DNA from: Bartonella sp. HY038
Lineage (GTDB): Bacteria > Pseudomonadota > Alphaproteobacteria > Rhizobiales > Rhizobiaceae
Direction of reading: 5' to 3'
DNA: 64,000 nucleotides
Assembly (NCBI RefSeq): GCF_014117425.1
Contig: NZ_CP059725.1
Location: forward strand, 2,356,001-2,420,000
In this document: positions 18,148-57,737 of the stretch, in pieces
How positions within the stretch are numbered: position 1 is the first letter of the stretch
Layout: each line of letters starts with the position of its first letter
Notes under the pieces: generated by a model
Told to the model about the DNA's origin: nothing
The model's database searches: none
Seen by the model: only the letters and a program-made list of their open reading frames with translations
Program-made: the position numbers and the translations under genes

Positions 18148-19095
18148 TTACCCTTTATTAGCATTTTCAGCAAGGGGATGAAAGCTATTGACCAGCTTTT
18201 GCAGCCTTTCTTCTAACACATGGGTATAAATCTGCGTAGTCGAAATATCGGCATGACCTAATAATTGTTGTACGGCGCGTAAATCTGCACCATTTTGCAA
18301 TAGATGGCTTGCAAAAGCATGGCGCAATACATGAGGCGATAATTTTTCAGCATCAATTTGCGCGCGGCTAGCAAGTGCTTTTAACTCACGCGCCACCACT
18401 TGCCGCGCAATGTAGCCACTATCTGACTGCGCAGGAAATAGAAAAGGGCTTTTATCTGAGGCTTTATTTTTCCTTATTAAAAGCCACGTTTCGACTGCTT
18501 GGCGAGCTTTATTGGAAAGCGGCACAAGTCGTTCTTTTGCACCTTTACCTTTGACAAGAATAAATTGCGGATTTCCCTCTACTGCCCTCAAGGTAAGGCT
18601 TATGAGTTCTGATATGCGAAGCCCACTTGCATAAAGCATCTCGATTAAAACATATAACCGATAGTTACGATAACGCTCCGCATCGCTCAAATCACTCAAA
18701 TTTGCTTCACTCTCTGCAAAATCAAGTAACAATCCAACTTCTGCTTCACTCATGATCTTCGGCAAAGTTTTAGCTTTGCTTGGGGCATCAATTTGGGCGG
18801 TAGGATCGTCTTGCCGGACATTTTCAGCATAAAGAAATTGATAAAATTGCCGCAAAGTCGAGAGGCGACGCGCTTGCGAGCTTTGGCTAAAACCTTCCAC
18901 CGCCATGCTTTGCAAGATTTTTTCAATATCGCTTTCCATAGCATTGGATAATTGTTTATTAGTTTTAGCAAGCAATTCATCAGCCCATTCAAGATCACGA
19001 TTATAGGCTTCAAGCGTATTGTCAGCAGCGCCGCGCTCCGCACTCATCATTTCTAAAAAGCGATCAATCAACCGCGAAGATTGCTTATTTACCAT
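18148..19095 (-). CDS. xerD: Site-specific tyrosine recombinase XerD
   Basis: XerD resolves chromosome dimers at dif with XerC and FtsK. It has 315 residues. The N-terminal SAM-like DNA-binding domain covers about residues 5-95. The catalytic domain shows the tyrosine recombinase set: R in [10 protein letters not shown]-x-x-R in [15 protein letters not shown] in [11 protein letters not shown], and the nucleophile Y in IYTHV. The ATG ending at 19095 follows GGGTAGC. A TTG four codons earlier is less likely. The xerD-accA neighbourhood is a housekeeping arrangement, so this is not a mobile-element integrase. Confidence 0.94.
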
Positions 19096-19110
19096 AATGC
19101 TACCCAATTC

Positions 19111-19335
19111 TTATTGTGAAGGCTCATTAAGGCGATCTGCATCTAATGCTTGCTCATCGCGTACTGGCTCTACCGGTTGTACAGGCCATGCCCGCAAATT
19201 TAGCTTGTCATTTGGTATTGTAATCGTCAGCTCTGCAGTTTTAGGCTTTACCATATAGGCCAGTGCATAAATTGCACCGCAAAACAATGCGGCAATTGTC
19301 AAAAGAATCAAAAAAATGCGGCGTATGGTTGGCAT
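19111..19335 (-). CDS. Small membrane-anchored protein of unknown function
   Basis: The protein has 74 residues: one N-terminal transmembrane segment (about residues 8-28, IFLILLTIAALFCGAIYALAYM) and a short polar tail beginning KPKTAELTITIPNDKLNLR. It lies 15 bases upstream of xerD on the same strand, so co-transcription is likely. The ATG ending at 19335 has AAAGG seven bases upstream. The longer frame reaching 19497 lacks one. No family was recognised. Confidence 0.65.
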   Translation of the reverse strand: MPTIRRIFLILLTIAALFCGAIYALAYMVKPKTAELTITIPNDKLNLRAWPVQPVEPVRDEQALDADRLNEPSQ

Positions 19336-19575
19336 GCTAACCTTTATTAGAACTAGAATGAATATTTGCATCTTTCCTGCGGGAAAGGTTCTAAAACGCA
19401 TTATTGATTTAAATTGTTGTTTATTTGCTAACGGCCGCAATTTTATTGAATAAATATCGTCAATGTCACTCATTTTAACAAATATCATTAAACTCAACGA
19501 AAATCAGAAGCTTCACAGAGCAGGCGAATTGTTTTAAGGTTAGAATAATTTTGATTTGACTGTTGGAGATAAGAG

Positions 19576-20688
19576 ATGAGCACCACCGTTAGAGTTAATT
19601 TGGATGAACGTAGCTACGATATTTTGATCGGCTCTAATCTTCTTAATTCTTGCGGTGCACTGATTGCATCACGCTTTAAAGGCGTAAGAACAGCCATTGT
19701 AACCGATAGTAATGTGGCAAAAATTCATCTAAAAACGGTAGAAGAAAGCTTAAAGCAGGCTGGCATTGACAATACATCAATCATTGTTGATGCGGGAGAA
19801 AAATCAAAATCCTTTCCTGTCTTGGAAAGAGTCGTAAGTGATCTTCTTGATGCAAGATTAGAGCGTGGTGATATGGTTTTAGCGCTTGGCGGCGGCGTTG
19901 TTGGTGATTTAACTGGTTTTGCCGCCGGCATCGTTCGCCGTGGTATGGGCTTTATCCAATTGCCAACTTCGCTTTTGGCGCAGGTTGATTCTTCAGTCGG
20001 TGGTAAAACTGGCATTAACACAGCACATGGAAAAAACTTGGTTGGCGTCTTTTATCAACCAGAACTCGTGCTTGCCGACACCGAGGCGCTTGACACATTA
20101 AGTAAGCGCGAGTTTCGTGCCGGCTATGCGGAAGTTGCTAAATATGGGCTCATTAACCAACCAGATTTTTTTGAATGGCTTGAAAAAAATTGGCAGGGCG
20201 TATTTGCAGGCGGCAGCGAACGGGTTAGTGCAATTGCCCGTTCATGCCAATCAAAGGCCGATGTTGTTGCCCGTGACGAACGCGAGTCGGGCGAGCGTGC
20301 CTTGCTTAATTTAGGCCATACATTTGGCCATGCCTTGGAAACGGCCACCCATTATGATAGTGGCCGCCTTGTTCACGGTGAAGGAGTGGCGATTGGCATG
20401 GTGCTTGCCCATGAGTTTTCAGCAAAATTAAATCTTTGTGCGCCCGAAGTGGCTTTACGCGTGCGTGCGCACTTAAAAGAGGTTGGCCTGCCGACAGATC
20501 TTGGTGACGTGCCAGGCGGCTTGCCAGATGCTGAAAGCTTAATGGGCTTTATCGCACAAGATAAAAAAGTTGAACGCGGTGCCTTAACATTTATCCTCAC
20601 ACGGGGGCTTGGCCAGTCTTTTGTGGCAAAAAATATCGCAACTTCTGAGGTTTTAGCCTTTTTACAAGAAAAACTTAGCAAAATTTAA
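19576..20688 (+). CDS. aroB: 3-dehydroquinate synthase
   Basis: The enzyme converts DAHP to 3-dehydroquinate in the shikimate pathway, using NAD and a divalent metal. It has 370 residues. The dinucleotide-binding region is [22 protein letters not shown]. The substrate and metal region includes [19 protein letters not shown], the EVAKYGLI segment, and the metal-binding [12 protein letters not shown] and [11 protein letters not shown] histidines. GGAGATAAGAG precedes the ATG. In relatives aroK normally lies directly upstream. Here the 240 bases before aroB contain none. Confidence 0.97.
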
Positions 20689-20739
20689 CAATCGCTAGTT
20701 GATCCTTTAATCGTTATTGGTTAAGAGAAAGGCATCAAT

Positions 20740-21082
20740 GTCCACGTAGCTCAGTAGGATAGAGCACAGGATTCCTAAAAATTGGGCGTTGCAGCTGGGA
20801 AACCCTGCAACGGATCTGCTCAAATTCGGGGAAAGCTTTATTGTTGCGATTTATCCAACAATATGCCAATCCCGAGCCAAGCTTTCAATATTTTAGCGCA
20901 AGCTATCAATTATTGAAGGAAGGTGTAGAGACTGGACGGGCAGCACCTAAAGGTTAAATATAATGTTTACCAATGGTGAAGGGACAGTCCAGACCACAAA
21001 CATAGATGATCCATCTATGGCGATGAAAATCGTAGTGGTATGAATCCTGGGGTCGGGGGTTCGAATCCCTTCGTGGACACCA
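20740..21082 (+). tRNA. tRNA-Arg(CCU), interrupted by a group I intron
   Basis: The 5' exon (20740-20776) gives acceptor GTCCACG, D arm GCTC..GAGC, anticodon stem CAGGA and loop bases TT plus anticodon CCT. The 3' exon (21043-21082) supplies AA, the complementary TCCTG, a T arm with TTCGAAT, acceptor CGTGGAC, discriminator A and an encoded CCA. Joined, the exons give a normal 77-base tRNA with loop TTCCTAA. The break falls after the third anticodon base. The gene cannot work without removal of the 266-base insert. Confidence 0.93.
20777..21042 (+). ncRNA. Group I self-splicing intron in tRNA-Arg(CCU)
   Basis: The insert has 266 bases and no ORF. The 5' exon ends in CCT, which can pair with the internal guide GGG at about 20783-20785, giving the usual U-G pair at the splice site. 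The intron ends in G at 21042, before AATCCTG. Core elements are in order: P-like AATTCGGGGAAA (20823-20834), Q-like AATCCCGAGCCAAGC (20868-20882), R-like AGAGACTGGACGGG (about 20927-20940) and S-like AAGGGACAGTCC (20979-20990). The R GACTG pairs with the S CAGTC to make P7. A P2 hairpin (GTTGCA with TGCAAC) and a P9-like hairpin (21001-21019) are visible. Introns at this tRNA are known from Agrobacterium and other alphaproteobacteria. Confidence 0.93.
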
Positions 21083-21187
21083 TAACCTCTTTTAATTATG
21101 CAACTTATTGTTTTTACTTATTTTTTAAGTTTATGGCAATGAAATAAAAGGTTAGGGCATAACTTAAATTTTCCTTATAGGCATTTG

Positions 21188-21787
21188 ATGGACGCATTTT
21201 TTTATGGCCTTGCAAATGGGCTTAGCTTTTTAGTGGTGATTGGTGCGCAAAATGCCTTTATTTTGAAGCAAGGGCTAAAGCGCGAGCATGTTTTTATTTT
21301 ATGCTTAACCTGCGCCTTATCCGATGCTTTATTGATTGCCTTTGGTGTAACTGGCTTTCATATAGTTTTGCAAAGCCAACCTTGGATTGAACCTTTAATG
21401 CGGTGGGGTGGTGGTTTGTTTTTGCTGTGGTATGGCGGCAAAAGTGCGCTTGCCGCTTACCGCGCTAATGGAAATATGGAACTTGGCAGCACGCAAAAAA
21501 TATCCCTTACAAGTGCTGTTTTAACCTGCCTTGCTTTAACATGGCTTAATCCGCATGTTTATCTTGATACCGTGGTTTTGCTTGGCACGGTCTCTACTCA
21601 ATTTGCCCCTCATCAATATTTATTTGGGCTTGGTGCGGTGATGGGTTCATTTTTATTCTTTTTTTGTCTTGGGTTTGGCGCTCGTTTTTTAAGGCCAATT
21701 TTTAACAATTCTCGTTCATGGCAAATACTTGATAGCATTATTGCGCTTATCATGTGGGCTATCGCGATAAAGCTTTTATTTTTTTAA
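21188..21787 (+). CDS. LysE/ArgO-family amino acid exporter
   Basis: This inner-membrane exporter has 199 residues and about six hydrophobic spans. The family signature GAQNAFILKQGLKREHVF lies near the N-terminus (about residues 19-36), followed by CALSDALLIAFGVTGF. The conserved LTWLNPHVYLDTVV segment is in the middle. This set is typical of the LysE/ArgO branch, which exports basic amino acids. ATAGG lies seven bases before the ATG at 21188. An insertion sequence begins 32 bases after the stop, so the original terminator region may be split. Confidence 0.9.
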   Translation: MDAFFYGLANGLSFLVVIGAQNAFILKQGLKREHVFILCLTCALSDALLIAFGVTGFHIVLQSQPWIEPLMRWGGGLFLLWYGGKSALAAYRANGNMELGSTQKISLTSAVLTCLALTWLNPHVYLDTVVLLGTVSTQFAPHQYLFGLGAVMGSFLFFFCLGFGARFLRPIFNNSRSWQILDSIIALIMWAIAIKLLFF

Positions 21788-21810
21788 ATTAAATGCTTGC
21801 CTATCGTTAA

Positions 21811-21818
21811 AAAAATAT
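21811..21818. repeat. Target-site duplication, left copy
   Basis: AAAAATAT directly abuts the left inverted repeat of the insertion sequence and is repeated exactly at its right end. Confidence 0.85.
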
Positions 21819-22525
21819 GGGGCTGACACCTAAGATTGTGATTTAAGGATGATTTTAAGATCATCTAGCAACTGTTTAGGTGTACCGATATTAAAGCGCC
21901 ATTCACATTCTTTCAAGAAAAGATTGAAATGCTCTTTTGGAACTCCGTTAAACTTTCTCATATGTCGTTTGGCTTGGTTCCAAAAATTTTCAATGCCATT
22001 AATATGGTTCTTTTCATTCGCAAATAAGATTGAATGATTAATGCGGAAATGTTTAAATTCTGAAACATCAAGCGCATTATATCCTCGCCAACAATCTGTA
22101 TAAACAATGCTGTCAGGTACGATTTTCTGGCGGATTATAGGCATAAGCGTATCTGTTTTAGCATCCAAGATGATTTGTGTATAAACTTGACCACCTCGCT
22201 TAAGAATAACAAAGACAGCAACTTTACCTGCGGCTCCTCGACCGCGCATGCCCTTGCTATGACCTCCAAAATAACTTTCATCTAATTCGATTTCACCCGC
22301 AAATTGTTCCGCACGTTCCTGTTGTTTTACGGCAATTGAACATCGCAATTTATGAAAAAAGCGTACAGCTGTATTGCGATGAATACCAGCCAAATCAGCA
22401 GCTGTTCTAGCAGTTGAACCCGCAATGAAGTATTTCATAAGCTCTAACTGCTTATTTCTTGTTAGTTTACAATGCTTTACATACATAAAGAGACCCTAAC
22501 TTATATAAAGTCAGGTGTCAGCCCC
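21819..22525 (-). mobile_element. IS1595-family insertion sequence (IS1016-like), complete
   Basis: The element is 707 bp. Its ends are 13-bp perfect inverted repeats, GGGGCTGACACCT on the left and the complement at 22513-22525. Identical 8-bp direct repeats flank it, the duplication length reported for IS1595 elements. It contains one transposase gene filling most of its length. Intact ends, intact duplications and an open frame point to a recent insertion. Confidence 0.93.
21830..22486 (-). CDS. IS1595-family DDE transposase (ISXO2-like)
   Basis: The protein has 218 residues. An N-terminal helix-turn-helix part (STARTAADLAGIHRNTAVRF) is followed by the ISXO2-like DDE domain. Acidic residues are seen in IELDESYFGGH and VYTDCWRGY, and the third acidic position in GIENFWNQAKRHMRKF. 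The KGMRGRGAAGKVAVFVIL segment is typical. The zinc-ribbon of longer family members is absent, as in the small IS1016-type elements. The frame is intact from ATG to stop and could encode active enzyme. Confidence 0.93.
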   Translation of the reverse strand: MYVKHCKLTRNKQLELMKYFIAGSTARTAADLAGIHRNTAVRFFHKLRCSIAVKQQERAEQFAGEIELDESYFGGHSKGMRGRGAAGKVAVFVILKRGGQVYTQIILDAKTDTLMPIIRQKIVPDSIVYTDCWRGYNALDVSEFKHFRINHSILFANEKNHINGIENFWNQAKRHMRKFNGVPKEHFNLFLKECEWRFNIGTPKQLLDDLKIILKSQS

Positions 22526-22533
22526 AAAAATAT
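22526..22533. repeat. Target-site duplication, right copy
   Basis: This is an exact copy of AAAAATAT at 21811-21818, adjoining the right inverted repeat. Confidence 0.85.
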
Positions 22534-22562
22534 TTTTAAATCGATGAGATAGCGGAAAAAAT

Positions 22563-23342
22563 ATGAGTTGGTTTAAAAAATTTTTTGCAAATAAAAATAT
22601 TCAACCAGTTAAAAAAATGCGGCAAGTCGAGTACATACCCCCATTGGGATAAACACCTGAAACAATACAGACATATTGGCAACATTGTTGGCATGAAACA
22701 ATGGGTCGCACCAATCCTGAACCAGAGGATGAAGCCCTGCCAATTCCTGATAAAGTAAGTTCTGATAATCGCATCAACTTTTTTACCGAATTTGCATTTA
22801 CTGATCAATTGCCCCATGCTGCCATTGAAGAAATGATGTTGCTTTTGCCGCGTGGCGACGCAATATTTAAACGCTTTTTATCGTGGTGGAATGAACCTCT
22901 ACATAAAATAAGCGAGCAGGAAGCCTCAAACTTTTTGCGCACACAGCTAAGTCTTGGCCAGAAGCTTGGCTTTGATGTAAGTTCTCCCGATCAACCGATT
23001 GAGATTATAAGAGGGAGTGATGTCGAAATTTCCGTAGCATTTAAAAATGCCTATGATCCTTTTGATAACATAACCGATGAAACTTATCATCGAGTATTAC
23101 AATCTAGCGGTGAATTTGGCTGGCTAGCCCATAGTTTTTTAAGTGAACCTCTTTATATGGCTGCAGGTTGTCATTACTCCATTGGTCATTGGATATGCCA
23201 ACCATTACAAGCAAACGAAAGTGGTATTGATATAACCGAAGCCCCCTATCGCCTCGCACGCGGTGGTTGGATGTGCGGACAAAGCCAAGATGGTATTTTT
23301 CTATATGATACACGCCTAGAACAACCAAGCAATAATGACTAA
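22563..23342 (+). pseudogene. Unknown protein gene with an in-frame stop codon
   Basis: From the ATG at 22563 the frame reads MSWFKKFFANKNIQPVKK and continues to IPPLG, then TAA at 22650-22652. The same frame continues without further stops: TPETIQTYWQHCWHETMGRTNPEPEDEA and on to the stop at 23342. A single changed base in TAA would restore a 259-residue protein. Without readthrough, translation could restart at the ATG at 22701 (213 residues), which has no good ribosome site. No domain was recognised, and there is no signal peptide or membrane span. It starts 30 bases after the insertion-sequence duplication. It could be a nonsense-mutated gene or a single-base sequence error. Confidence 0.6.
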
Positions 23343-23390
23343 TTTAGAGCACATTCAAAGGCTCGTATAGCTTTGACTATACTCTAAATT
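23341..23390. terminator. Two-way hairpin between convergent genes
   Basis: AATTTAGAG (23341-23349) pairs with CTCTAAATT (23382-23390), with an inner TCAAAG/CTTTGA stem. It sits between the stop codons of the broken gene and the M20 gene. Confidence 0.5.
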
Positions 23391-23410
23391 ATACAGACTA
23401 AATAATCTAT

Positions 23411-24592
23411 TTACTGCAAAAATTCCTCAACCAAATGCACCCAAAAGCTTGCACCAACTTCAATTATTTCATCATTGAAGTTATAGTGATCATTATGTAA
23501 ATTAGCGGAATTCCCATTGCCAATAAAGAGATAGCAGCCGGGACATTGCTCCAACATATAAGCAAAATCTTCACTAAATGAAAATGGCTCATTTTGTCGG
23601 AAAAGCTTCTCTGGACCAAAATTTTTAACGGCAACCCTTTGCGCAAGTTGTGTTAATTTTTCATCATTATAAACCGAAGGCGTAACTGCGCGATATTCAA
23701 CATCAATAGTTGCTCCGTAAGCTGCCCCATAACCTTGCACCAGTTCTTTTATCCGCGTTTCAAGCAAGGCGCGAATATTGGCATCGTAACTACGAACCGT
23801 TAACCGCAATTCTGCAGTTTCTGGAATAATATTAAAAGCATCACCTGCAATAAAGCTACCAACCGTAATAACTGCGGCATCATTGGGAGCAATATTACGA
23901 GAAATAATCGATTGGAGGCCAGAAACAATGGCGCTACCAATTAAAATTGGGTCAATGGCTTTTTGCGGTTGCGCACCATGCCCACTACGACCATGTATGG
24001 TAATTCGCACGCGATCTGAGCCCGCTGTTGCTATTGCGGGAATAAAGCAAAATTGCCCCAACGCTATACCAGGAACATTATGATAGCCAAAAACAGCATC
24101 ACAAGGAAATTTGGTAAATAGCCCCTCCTCAATCATTTTTTTAGCGCCGCCCAAACCTTCTTCGGCAGGTTGAAATATCAACCGAACAGTGCCCGAAAAA
24201 TCTTTTCGCTCCGAAATACAGCGTGCGGCTGTAAGAAGTGTCGTCGTGTGTCCATCATGACCGCAAGCATGCATAACACCGTCATTCTTACTAGCATAAG
24301 CAAGGTCTGTATTTTCAACAATGGGTAAAGCATCCATATCAGCTCTAATTGCCAATATTTTTTTACCTGTCCCTTGCTGCAGAGTTGCAACAATTCCTGT
24401 ACCCGCTATACCTTCGACAACATCATAGCCCCAAGATTTTAGCTTTTCAGCAACAGTTTTTGAGGTTTGAGTTTCATGAAACCCTAATTCTGGGAGCTGG
24501 TGTAGTTGATGACGCAATTTTATCATTTCAGGCAAAAAATTGCTGATATGTTGGCGAATATTATCTACATGCGACGCCAATTTATTCTCCAC
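23411..24592 (-). CDS. M20D-family amidohydrolase (hippurate hydrolase-like)
   Basis: This metal-dependent enzyme cleaves N-acyl amino acids or related amides. It has 393 residues. Metal-site motifs are MHACGHDGHTT (H108, C110, H112, D113, H115), FQPAEEGLGGAK with the catalytic glutamate pair, and GYHNVPG. The dimerisation domain begins GRSGHGAQPQKAIDPI. The start codon is GTG (MENKLAS). A TTG four codons in, with GGAG before it, is an alternative. It lies downstream of an MHS transporter, which suggests it processes an imported compound. A second member of this subfamily is at 51110-52288. Confidence 0.9.
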   Translation of the reverse strand: MENKLASHVDNIRQHISNFLPEMIKLRHQLHQLPELGFHETQTSKTVAEKLKSWGYDVVEGIAGTGIVATLQQGTGKKILAIRADMDALPIVENTDLAYASKNDGVMHACGHDGHTTTLLTAARCISERKDFSGTVRLIFQPAEEGLGGAKKMIEEGLFTKFPCDAVFGYHNVPGIALGQFCFIPAIATAGSDRVRITIHGRSGHGAQPQKAIDPILIGSAIVSGLQSIISRNIAPNDAAVITVGSFIAGDAFNIIPETAELRLTVRSYDANIRALLETRIKELVQGYGAAYGATIDVEYRAVTPSVYNDEKLTQLAQRVAVKNFGPEKLFRQNEPFSFSEDFAYMLEQCPGCYLFIGNGNSANLHNDHYNFNDEIIEVGASFWVHLVEEFLQ

Positions 24593-24740
24593 TTATCTCA
24601 TAATTTCAGCTACAGCCTATCAAATTGATGGCAATAAAATAACCAAAATTATCTCACTGTTAATGTAATTAATTTTATAGGTAAACTTATATTTATGATA
24701 AAAAATCTAACTAAAGATCTTATTGCTTTTATGAAAAGTC

Positions 24741-24768
24741 ATTAGGGGGAACTTTATTGCCCCCTAAT
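24741..24768 (-). terminator. Terminator after the MHS transporter
   Basis: ATTAGGGGG pairs perfectly with CCCCCTAAT across a ten-base loop. On the minus strand GACTTTTC follows. Confidence 0.6.
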
Positions 24769-24777
24769 ATTTATACC

Positions 24778-26067
24778 TTAAGCCTTAGAAGGTTTTGAGA
24801 AATTGGCGGCACAAAGTGCTATGATGCTCACCAATGCTGCAAACATAATATAATAAGCAATGGCGCGGTTATCACCAGTAAAGCCGATAAGTGCGGTAGA
24901 AATAACTGGCGAAAATCCACCAAAAATAGTAACCGCAATATTATAGGATAAAGAAATTCCTGATGATCTAAACGCTGTTGGGTATAATTCTGAAAGTGCA
25001 GCAGACGCTGGCGCTGTATAAAACACCATTAAAACTGCATAGAAAAATTGCTGCGCTATCAATACCCACACAGTTGGATAGGCTGATAATATCCAAAATG
25101 CTGGATAAGCACTTACAAAAATAGCAGCAGCCGCTCCAATCATAATAGGTTTACGACCAATACGATCAGACCATGCACCGACGAATGGACAAAATAGCAA
25201 TACAATACCAACAACAATCATACCAAGATAAGGCGAAGATAGCTCCATCTTTAAATTAGTAATCGCATAAGTTGGCATAAATGAGCTAGCTGTTTTACTT
25301 GTGACGGTCCAAATAATCACAATACCAATACCAATTAGTAGCGCTTTACCGTTGTTTTTTGCAAGCACTGCAAATGGGACATGTTCTTTTGGACCTTTTG
25401 CATTCTGAGCTAAGAATTCTGGAGACTCATCAATCTGCTTTCTAATATAGAAGCCGACAGGCGCAACAAGCATACCAAATGCAAAAGCCACACGCCAACC
25501 CCAACTAGCTACCTGATCAGCATCTAAAAGAGATGTAATACTCCAACCAACAAGGCCAGCCACTAAAAAGGCGCCCGTTTGGCTAACTTGTTGCCAAGCA
25601 GCATATTGACCTCTTTTATGCTTTGGGGCAGTTTCAACGAGAATAGATAAGGCACTACCTATTTCCCCCCCCGCAGAAATCCCCTGAATAAGACGTGCAA
25701 TCACAATAATGATCGGTGCAAAAATACCAATTTGTGCATAGGTTGGACAAAATGCGATAATTGCCATACCTAGTGCCATTAGCAACATTGTTAATGAAAG
25801 AGCTGACTTACGTCCAACGCGATCAGAATAAGCACCTAATACAATAGCCCCTAAAGGACGTGTTACAAAACCAACTGCAAATGTAATAAAGGTTAAAAGC
25901 AGTGATACGACTTCATTTTCTGCTGGAAAAAACTGCTTTGAAATTACAAATGCGAATAAAGCATAAGCACCAAAATCATACCACTCCAATGCACCGCCCA
26001 TGACGGCAGCTGTAATGACTTTTCGTGATACAGCTTTATTTTCAGGTGCCTGCGAAACGTCTCCCAT
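24778..26067 (-). CDS. MFS transporter, metabolite:H+ symporter (MHS) family
   Basis: This inner-membrane symporter has 429 residues and twelve predicted spans. The MHS entry motif GGALEWYDFGAYALFAF is at the first span. The MFS loop GAYSDRVGRKSAL lies between spans 2 and 3 and is repeated as GAWSDRIGRKPIM in the second half. RLIQGISAGGEIG fits the ProP/ShiA/KgtP group, which takes up organic acids and osmolytes. The start is the ATG ending at 26067, with GGAGGT eight bases upstream. A divergent LysR gene lies 155 bases away and is the likely regulator. Confidence 0.92.
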   Translation of the reverse strand: MGDVSQAPENKAVSRKVITAAVMGGALEWYDFGAYALFAFVISKQFFPAENEVVSLLLTFITFAVGFVTRPLGAIVLGAYSDRVGRKSALSLTMLLMALGMAIIAFCPTYAQIGIFAPIIIVIARLIQGISAGGEIGSALSILVETAPKHKRGQYAAWQQVSQTGAFLVAGLVGWSITSLLDADQVASWGWRVAFAFGMLVAPVGFYIRKQIDESPEFLAQNAKGPKEHVPFAVLAKNNGKALLIGIGIVIIWTVTSKTASSFMPTYAITNLKMELSSPYLGMIVVGIVLLFCPFVGAWSDRIGRKPIMIGAAAAIFVSAYPAFWILSAYPTVWVLIAQQFFYAVLMVFYTAPASAALSELYPTAFRSSGISLSYNIAVTIFGGFSPVISTALIGFTGDNRAIAYYIMFAALVSIIALCAANFSKPSKA

Positions 26068-27359: not shown

Positions 27360-27666
27360 GGCCACCTCCATCATATTAAATTATAATACGCCTTTTAAAT
27401 CATTCTAACAAGATGTTAAATTAGCATCAATTATCAAAGAAAAGTCTGCAAAGTTGATTGAATAGCAACAATTTTACCAAGCCTCATCTTAATCAATTAG
27501 CTTATTTGTAAAAGAATAGCTTACCTCTTTCGATTTTTTTAAACCAATTTGTAATTATTATAATTAAGTTGGGGCAATCTGTCTTATTTACACAATTAGC
27601 CTCTAGAAATGTTTTAAAAGATATGCCATCCTCATCGTTAAGCAGGAAAAAGCATTTTTCCATCTT
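27360..27666. other. Intergenic region before the glycine riboswitch
   Basis: Very AT-rich. It should contain the promoters of the small membrane protein (minus) and of the gcv operon (plus). No distinct motif was identified. Confidence 0.4.
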
Positions 27667-27836
27667 GCTGCGGGAGAGAATTTTTCAATAAATCGCCGAA
27701 GGGGAAAACCGCCCGTAATCTCTCAGGCAAAAGGACCGCAGCTAAGATAAAGCAACTCTGGAAAGTCGGGGGAAGCCCCGCGCCGAAGGTGTAAGTGGAT
27801 TCTTCCACGAGTCTCTCAGGCTTTCGACAGAAGGGC
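27667..27836 (+). promoter_or_regulatory. Tandem glycine riboswitch
   Basis: There are two glycine aptamers in series. Each has the conserved GCCGAAGG (27695-27702 and 27782-27789) and the closing CTCTCAGG (about 27720-27727 and 27813-27820). The first aptamer opens with GCGGGAGAG and closes with GGACCGC. It lies about 110 bases before gcvT, so glycine should switch on its own cleavage genes, as known for this class. Confidence 0.95.
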
Positions 27837-57638: not shown

Positions 57639-57666
57639 CTACCATTAATTTTAAACATAATGGTAG
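57639..57666 (-). terminator. Hairpin at the 3' end of tRNA-Met
   Basis: CTACCATTA pairs with TAATGGTAG across ten bases. On the minus strand the first arm includes the last six bases of the tRNA (CTACCA), and TCCTTATTTT follows the second arm. Confidence 0.55.
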
Positions 57667-57737
57667 CGGAGGAGGGATTCGAACCCCCGACACAAGGATT
57701 ATGATTCCTCTGCTCTAACCTACTGAGCTACTCCGCC
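57661..57737 (-). tRNA. tRNA-Met (CAT), elongator type
   Basis: A 77-base cloverleaf: acceptor GGCGGAG with CTCCGCT, D arm GCTC..GAGC, anticodon stem GAGGA/TCCTT with loop ATCATAA (anticodon CAT), T arm with TTCGAAT, and an encoded CCA. The first base pair is G-T, not the unpaired C1-A72 type of the initiator. Ile2 tRNAs also carry CAT, so elongator Met is the likely but not the only reading. Confidence 0.93.

Follow-up and report, generated by a model that had tools for sequence, protein, structure and literature searches.

The tRNA-Arg(CCU) gene of Agrobacterium tumefaciens reportedly carries an intron, described by Reinhold-Hurek and Shub in 1992 and by Paquin et al. in 1999. The corresponding gene of Bartonella bacilliformis contains BbgpI, a group I intron which is described as self-splicing in vitro and as being spliced in vivo (PMC7717549). 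According to a table footnote, a tRNA-Arg of the acetic acid bacterium Asaia bogorensis is split by a homologue of a group I intron (PMC4596401), and the introns of Azoarcus tRNA-Ile and of the cyanobacterial tRNA-Leu(UAA) are counted to group IC3 (see the review PMC3984707).

The 64-kb stretch of DNA analysed here (the window) contains a tRNA-Arg(CCU) gene that is interrupted in the anticodon loop. When introns are allowed, ARAGORN calls a tRNA-Arg(cct) of 77 nt with an intron of exactly 266 bases, displayed as ttcct-Intron-aatcc. The 5' exon (20740-20776) ends with the anticodon CCU, the U being its last base, and the 3' exon (21043-21082) includes the encoded CCA. The intron (20777-21042), the borders of which are set by ARAGORN and by alignment with 53 relatives, is inserted after the third anticodon base; these features, the intron elements described below, and aroB are found on the + strand. 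As supposed in the first-pass annotation of this DNA, the joined exons are recognized by ARAGORN as a 77-nt tRNA-Arg(cct), and the uncut sequence (20740-21082) yields a tRNA only when the search permits introns. The same annotation held that a perfect cloverleaf is obtained only with 266 bases removed. The removal is confirmed by ARAGORN, but the word perfect is slightly strong, since the T stem of the rebuilt cloverleaf has two G-U pairs; all other stems are fully paired. The intron was also called ORF-free, which is a fair description as its longest stop-free stretch on either strand is 59 codons.

The intron of the window shares with BbgpI the interrupted tRNA, an insertion site flanked by CCT, and the stems P1-P9 (PMC7717549). 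As in Asaia bogorensis, a tRNA-Arg is split by a sequence of group I type, and the window intron resembles those of Azoarcus tRNA-Ile and cyanobacterial tRNA-Leu(UAA) in being a small group I intron situated in the anticodon loop. The latter introns interrupt other tRNAs and presumably use other guide sequences; they are likened to the window intron by description and not by alignment. The A. tumefaciens intron occupies the same site in the same tRNA, and it is carried by the A. tumefaciens genomes fetched for this study (e.g., L146 and L176). However, the Agrobacterium introns are found elsewhere in the intron tree, together with those of Rhizobium, and measure 223-240 nt in ten Agrobacterium loci. 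The Bartonella introns resolved here also differ from the window copy, being 225-234 nt long (278 nt in B. tamiae), while the extra length of the 266-nt window intron is located in P5, P6a, and P8.

A scan for promoters and terminators displayed no promoter-like site on the + strand around the locus, and the only terminator-like site on this strand (21206-21222) falls inside the next gene. A gene encoding an IS1595-type transposase (21830-22486) is found just downstream of a lysE-like gene. A 17-kb stretch from the sister genome aligns with window positions 19001-24800 over 19526-21799 only, and the IS1595 element and the sequence beyond it are thus missing from this place in the sister. Further along the window, a single glycine riboswitch aptamer (27661-27748; 69.5 bits) precedes a cluster that by eye resembles gcvT, gcvH, and gcvP.

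The Rfam model for group I introns, RF00028, matches the locus over its whole length (model positions 1-253) with 47.0 bits and an E-value of 5.6e-11 when 441 bases are searched. The match runs over 20742-21005, which covers the 5' exon but not the 3' end of the intron. In a search of the whole 3.6-Mb genome the locus is the sole significant match (E 1.1e-10). A second candidate (14.6 bits, E 0.55) was rejected as noise; searches allowing E-values up to 10 give matches in eight of 14 control genomes. The covariance-model match that the first-pass annotation asked for at 20777-21042 is thus present, though 3 bits under the curated gathering score of 50 bits. Default scans of the 64-kb window missed both the intron (Rfam at its gathering cut-off) and the split tRNA-Arg(CCU) (ARAGORN). 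These misses are due to threshold and settings, and are no evidence against the intron. The same behavior is seen for relatives: out of 12 related tRNA-Arg or tRNA-Leu intron loci, three pass the RF00028 cut-off, seven score below it, and two are unmatched at E 0.001. With nine of the 12 loci missed, the cut-off is of little use for recognizing this intron family, and with three passing 50 bits, default Rfam annotation would under-count tRNA group I introns.

The core helices were drawn by hand from the window sequence, giving 13 helices (P1-P10 with P6a, P9a, and P9b) which contain standard pairs throughout. The P1 guide GGG (20784-20786) pairs with the CCU of the exon, including the U.G splice-site pair U20776.G20784, and just before it is the P10 half AUU (20781-20783), which would pair with the AAU that starts the 3' exon (21043-21045). 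P2 (20787-20812) is a hairpin with a GAAA loop. The 5' strand of P3, CUGCUC (20816-20821), has its partner GGGCAG at 20938-20943, and that of P4 (20825-20830) has its partner at 20871-20876. P5 (20835-20866) is a hairpin, while P6 (20877-20923) includes P6a (20882-20919) as well as an extra inner hairpin whose loop is GCAA. P7 is formed by the R element GAGACUG (20928-20934) and the S element CAGUCC (20985-20990), and carries one bulged A. P8 covers 20944-20978. P9 (20993-21039) includes P9a (21001-21019) and the GAAA hairpin P9b (21021-21032), and the intron ends with the omega G (21042), a residue that is G in all 138 introns recovered. All pairs of the conserved core, P3, P4, P6, P7, and P8 with the P3/P7 pseudoknot, can form. 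The ordered core elements, the P7 pairing, the U-G splice-site pair, and the terminal G that were initially noted in this sequence are accordingly all there. As judged from the layout, the three-pair P1, the P9 with P9b, and the P2 with its GAAA loop agree with the IC3-type arrangement of Azoarcus, and the window intron may belong to this subgroup.

The exon-intron-exon RNA is predicted to fold 5.7 standard deviations below its shuffled versions (z -5.72), and none of 100 shuffles is as low. Its minimum-energy fold contains P2, P4, P5, P6a, P9, P9a, and P9b, as well as the acceptor and D stems of the tRNA. The split tRNA called by ARAGORN, the RF00028 match, and the intact core all support the original proposal that tRNA-Arg(CCU) is split by a group I intron. 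The insert almost certainly belongs to the tRNA-anticodon type of group I introns, as do those of Agrobacterium and Bartonella, and is predicted from its sequence to self-splice from the tRNA-Arg(CCU) precursor.

Guanosine attack followed by exon ligation is the established biochemistry of group I introns (see the review PMC3984707). In the window intron, the attack by a bound guanosine would occur just behind the exon U paired to G in P1, and the released 5' exon would in turn attack at the position following the terminal G. P10, formed by AUU and AAU, would hold the 3' exon during this second step, and ligation of the exons would yield an intact anticodon loop.

The drawn structure was compared with an alignment of 54 sequences including the window copy. 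These were chosen as representatives at less than 86% identity from 137 introns, that is, the 138 found among the matches listed minus one containing Ns, and were aligned using MAFFT without structural information. Without P10, 94.1% of the cells are paired as against 81.0% in shuffled alignments. Changes on both sides are seen for 41 of 65 pairs (28.6 in shuffles), and the number of further pair types is 117 (104.9 in shuffles). The covariation score is 0.370 compared to 0.137 ± 0.005 in shuffles, a value reached by none of the 500 shuffles, which ignore relatedness; controls with slid partners score 0.06-0.11, the real structure being favoured over these by having been drawn from one of the aligned sequences. 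P3 is paired in 324 of 324 cells with three of its six pairs changed on both sides, and the four closing pairs of P8 are standard in 216 of 216 cells with three of the four changed on both sides. The agreement is poorer for the outermost pair of P4, which fails in 22 of the 54 sequences, and for one inner pair of P2, which fails in 34. P1, including the U.G splice-site pair, P7, and P10 are invariant in 54 of 54 sequences, and are thus conserved but uninformative when it comes to covariation. Across the 54 relatives, the group I structure covaries far above the controls.

Within the GTDB family of the window genome, 199 genomes were searched using a query of 345 bases, and a match across both exons and the intron was found in 24 of these, the window genome included. 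ARAGORN also finds the intron in G173, while in G079 the match is broken into two pieces at the end of a contig. Both genomes of the window's genus in the set (2/2) have the intron. A strict pattern for the uninterrupted gene matched 17 of the 199 genomes; other relatives may differ in their exons. A pattern scan of named species genomes matched at least 119 stretches. Altogether 149 loci were examined, 30 from the family genomes and 119 from these named species, some genomes being represented in both sets. Using a regular-expression search, the intron was found at the identical site in 138 of the 149 loci among the matches listed, while two were uninterrupted and nine gave no clear outcome, two of the latter being tRNA-Leu loci. 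The named hosts among the matches listed include Agrobacterium, Rhizobium, Bartonella, Candidatus Tokpelaia, Mesorhizobium, Aureimonas, relatives of Rhodobacter, Azospirillum, Magnetospirillum, and many acetic acid bacteria. The statement that introns at this tRNA are established for Agrobacterium and other alphaproteobacteria thus agrees with the genomes of the named relatives.

Including 13 exon bases on each side, the window intron is 65-80% identical to 135 other introns and 98% identical to that of the sister. The 138 introns among the matches listed range from 212 to 287 nt with a median of 229. Only four are 266 nt or longer, namely the window copy, its sister, Bartonella tamiae (278 nt), and G005 (287 nt), and the claim that the copy is compact is thus refuted. 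Its P6a region is 43 nt as against a median of 24, being the second-longest of the 54 (2/54 at least as long, counting the window copy). P5 is 32 nt (median 23; 5/54 at least as long), and P8 is 35 nt (median 27; 4/54 at least as long). Within the tRNA-Arg(CCU) intron family, the window intron is ordinary, though somewhat long. The intron of G173 (L057) has a hairpin-like stretch inserted in the P1 loop, which makes this loop the longest of the 54, and shorter insertions are seen in L083 and L126.

Group I introns were also found in tRNA-Leu(UAA) of nine family genomes, in nine of the 11 stretches fetched (loci L225-L231, L234, and L235, from G002, G068, G062, G151, G029, G105, G194, G045, and G044). 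No description of such tRNA-Leu(UAA) introns was seen in the titles and abstract openings of the literature surveyed. In the intron tree eight of the Leu introns form a starred clade, while the ninth, from the small-genome relative G044, sits on a long branch within the Arg introns of Bartonella. This intron carries the P7 letters of the Arg type, and an uninterrupted tRNA-Arg(CCU) lies about 9 kb from it in the same genome. It might be that the intron lineage still jumps between tRNA genes and that G044 displays a move from Arg to Leu with the guide sequence rewritten, but as read from these sequences this is doubtful. When two separate origins of the Leu introns were tested for, a single Leu clade was not rejected (p-AU 0.62), the constrained tree having the higher likelihood, and the move is no more than a lead.

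The gene directly upstream of the split tRNA in the window is aroB, encoding 3-dehydroquinate synthase (19576-20688; Pfam PF01761 and PF24621, synteny). The same gene is found in this position and on the same strand in the sister, Candidatus Tokpelaia, Bartonella, the small genomes G093 and G076, and Mesorhizobium liriopis. The distance from the end of the AroB match to the interrupted tRNA is 35-71 bases in the window, Tokpelaia, Bartonella, the two small-genome relatives, and M. liriopis. The presence of aroB upstream of the tRNA in the window, Tokpelaia, and Bartonella points to old vertical inheritance. In the intron tree (63 rows), the window intron shares a group of 16 rows with the introns of Tokpelaia, Bartonella, and three small-genome relatives (support 87/100, not starred); apart from the Leu intron of G044, these rows are 15 Arg introns. 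G072 has an uninterrupted tRNA-Arg(CCU) (L237:1856-1932) downstream of aroB, which is the arrangement of the window without the intron and thus a natural empty site. It follows that the intron has been lost or gained at least once at this position. The placement of G072 in the AroB tree is not firm.

A recent horizontal arrival of the intron in the window's genus would fit with the empty site of G072 and with exons and intron being matched in just 24 of 199 family genomes; judging by its title, Paquin et al. (1999) also describe the distribution as sporadic. Against such an arrival speak both the grouping of the intron with those of Tokpelaia, Bartonella, and the small-genome relatives, and the shared position between aroB and the tRNA. 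Possible vehicles give it little further support, as no intron match was found among 50,697 phage records, and the two matches among 72,556 plasmid records, both from Tritonibacter, cover 32% of the query. A recent arrival thus seems unlikely. Vertical inheritance from an ancestor that the window's genus shares with Tokpelaia and Bartonella is the favoured reading of the synteny and of the moderately supported intron tree.

The arginine tRNA genes read in the genome have the anticodons UCU, CCG, and ACG. An uninterrupted tRNA-Arg(CCU) is absent from the 48 tRNA genes listed, for which 150 of 257 candidates were scored; Ile(GAU), for instance, was not read. As this listing is incomplete, it is mainly a search of the genome with the joined exons that speaks against a second CCU gene; this search also found no intact tRNA-Arg(CCU). 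The best match was a tRNA-Met at window positions 57661-57737 (90% over 59 bases), followed by the two exon halves and then by other tRNAs. An intact second copy, which according to the first-pass annotation would speak against the intron if the locus gave no spliced product, was accordingly not found by either approach. The CCU tRNA is probably supplied by splicing of the interrupted gene, and we infer that this tRNA reads AGG codons.

The insert could alternatively be a decayed group I intron in a dead tRNA gene, no longer splicing, with AGG being read by tRNA-Arg(UCU). This tRNA is present and could read AGG by wobble, in which case the split gene may be dispensable, and AGG is rare, making up 33 of 852 Arg codons in the 48 long open frames of the window. 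However, every drawn core pair is intact in the window copy, and both exons still make a full tRNA. The sister is 98% identical over the whole unit, and its few differences within the intron by eye spare the core pairs. P1 and P7 have moreover stayed the same in all 54 sequences, the window copy included. A dead gene is thus very improbable compared to a self-splicing group I intron. A tRNA intron spliced by proteins, whether archaeal-type or other, can practically be dismissed, and so can an unrelated insertion. The insert does adjoin the anticodon, close to where protein-spliced introns canonically lie, but it matches the group I covariance model and has a group I core with a P3/P7 pseudoknot and covariation.

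The window intron is one more member of an established family, and nothing is changed in the knowledge of group I introns. Default scans overlook the one tRNA-Arg(CCU) gene that was found in this genome, and tRNA counts may therefore be wrong for the group. Through the conserved position between aroB and the tRNA, one small ribozyme can be traced over many genomes as it is inherited, lost, or moved.
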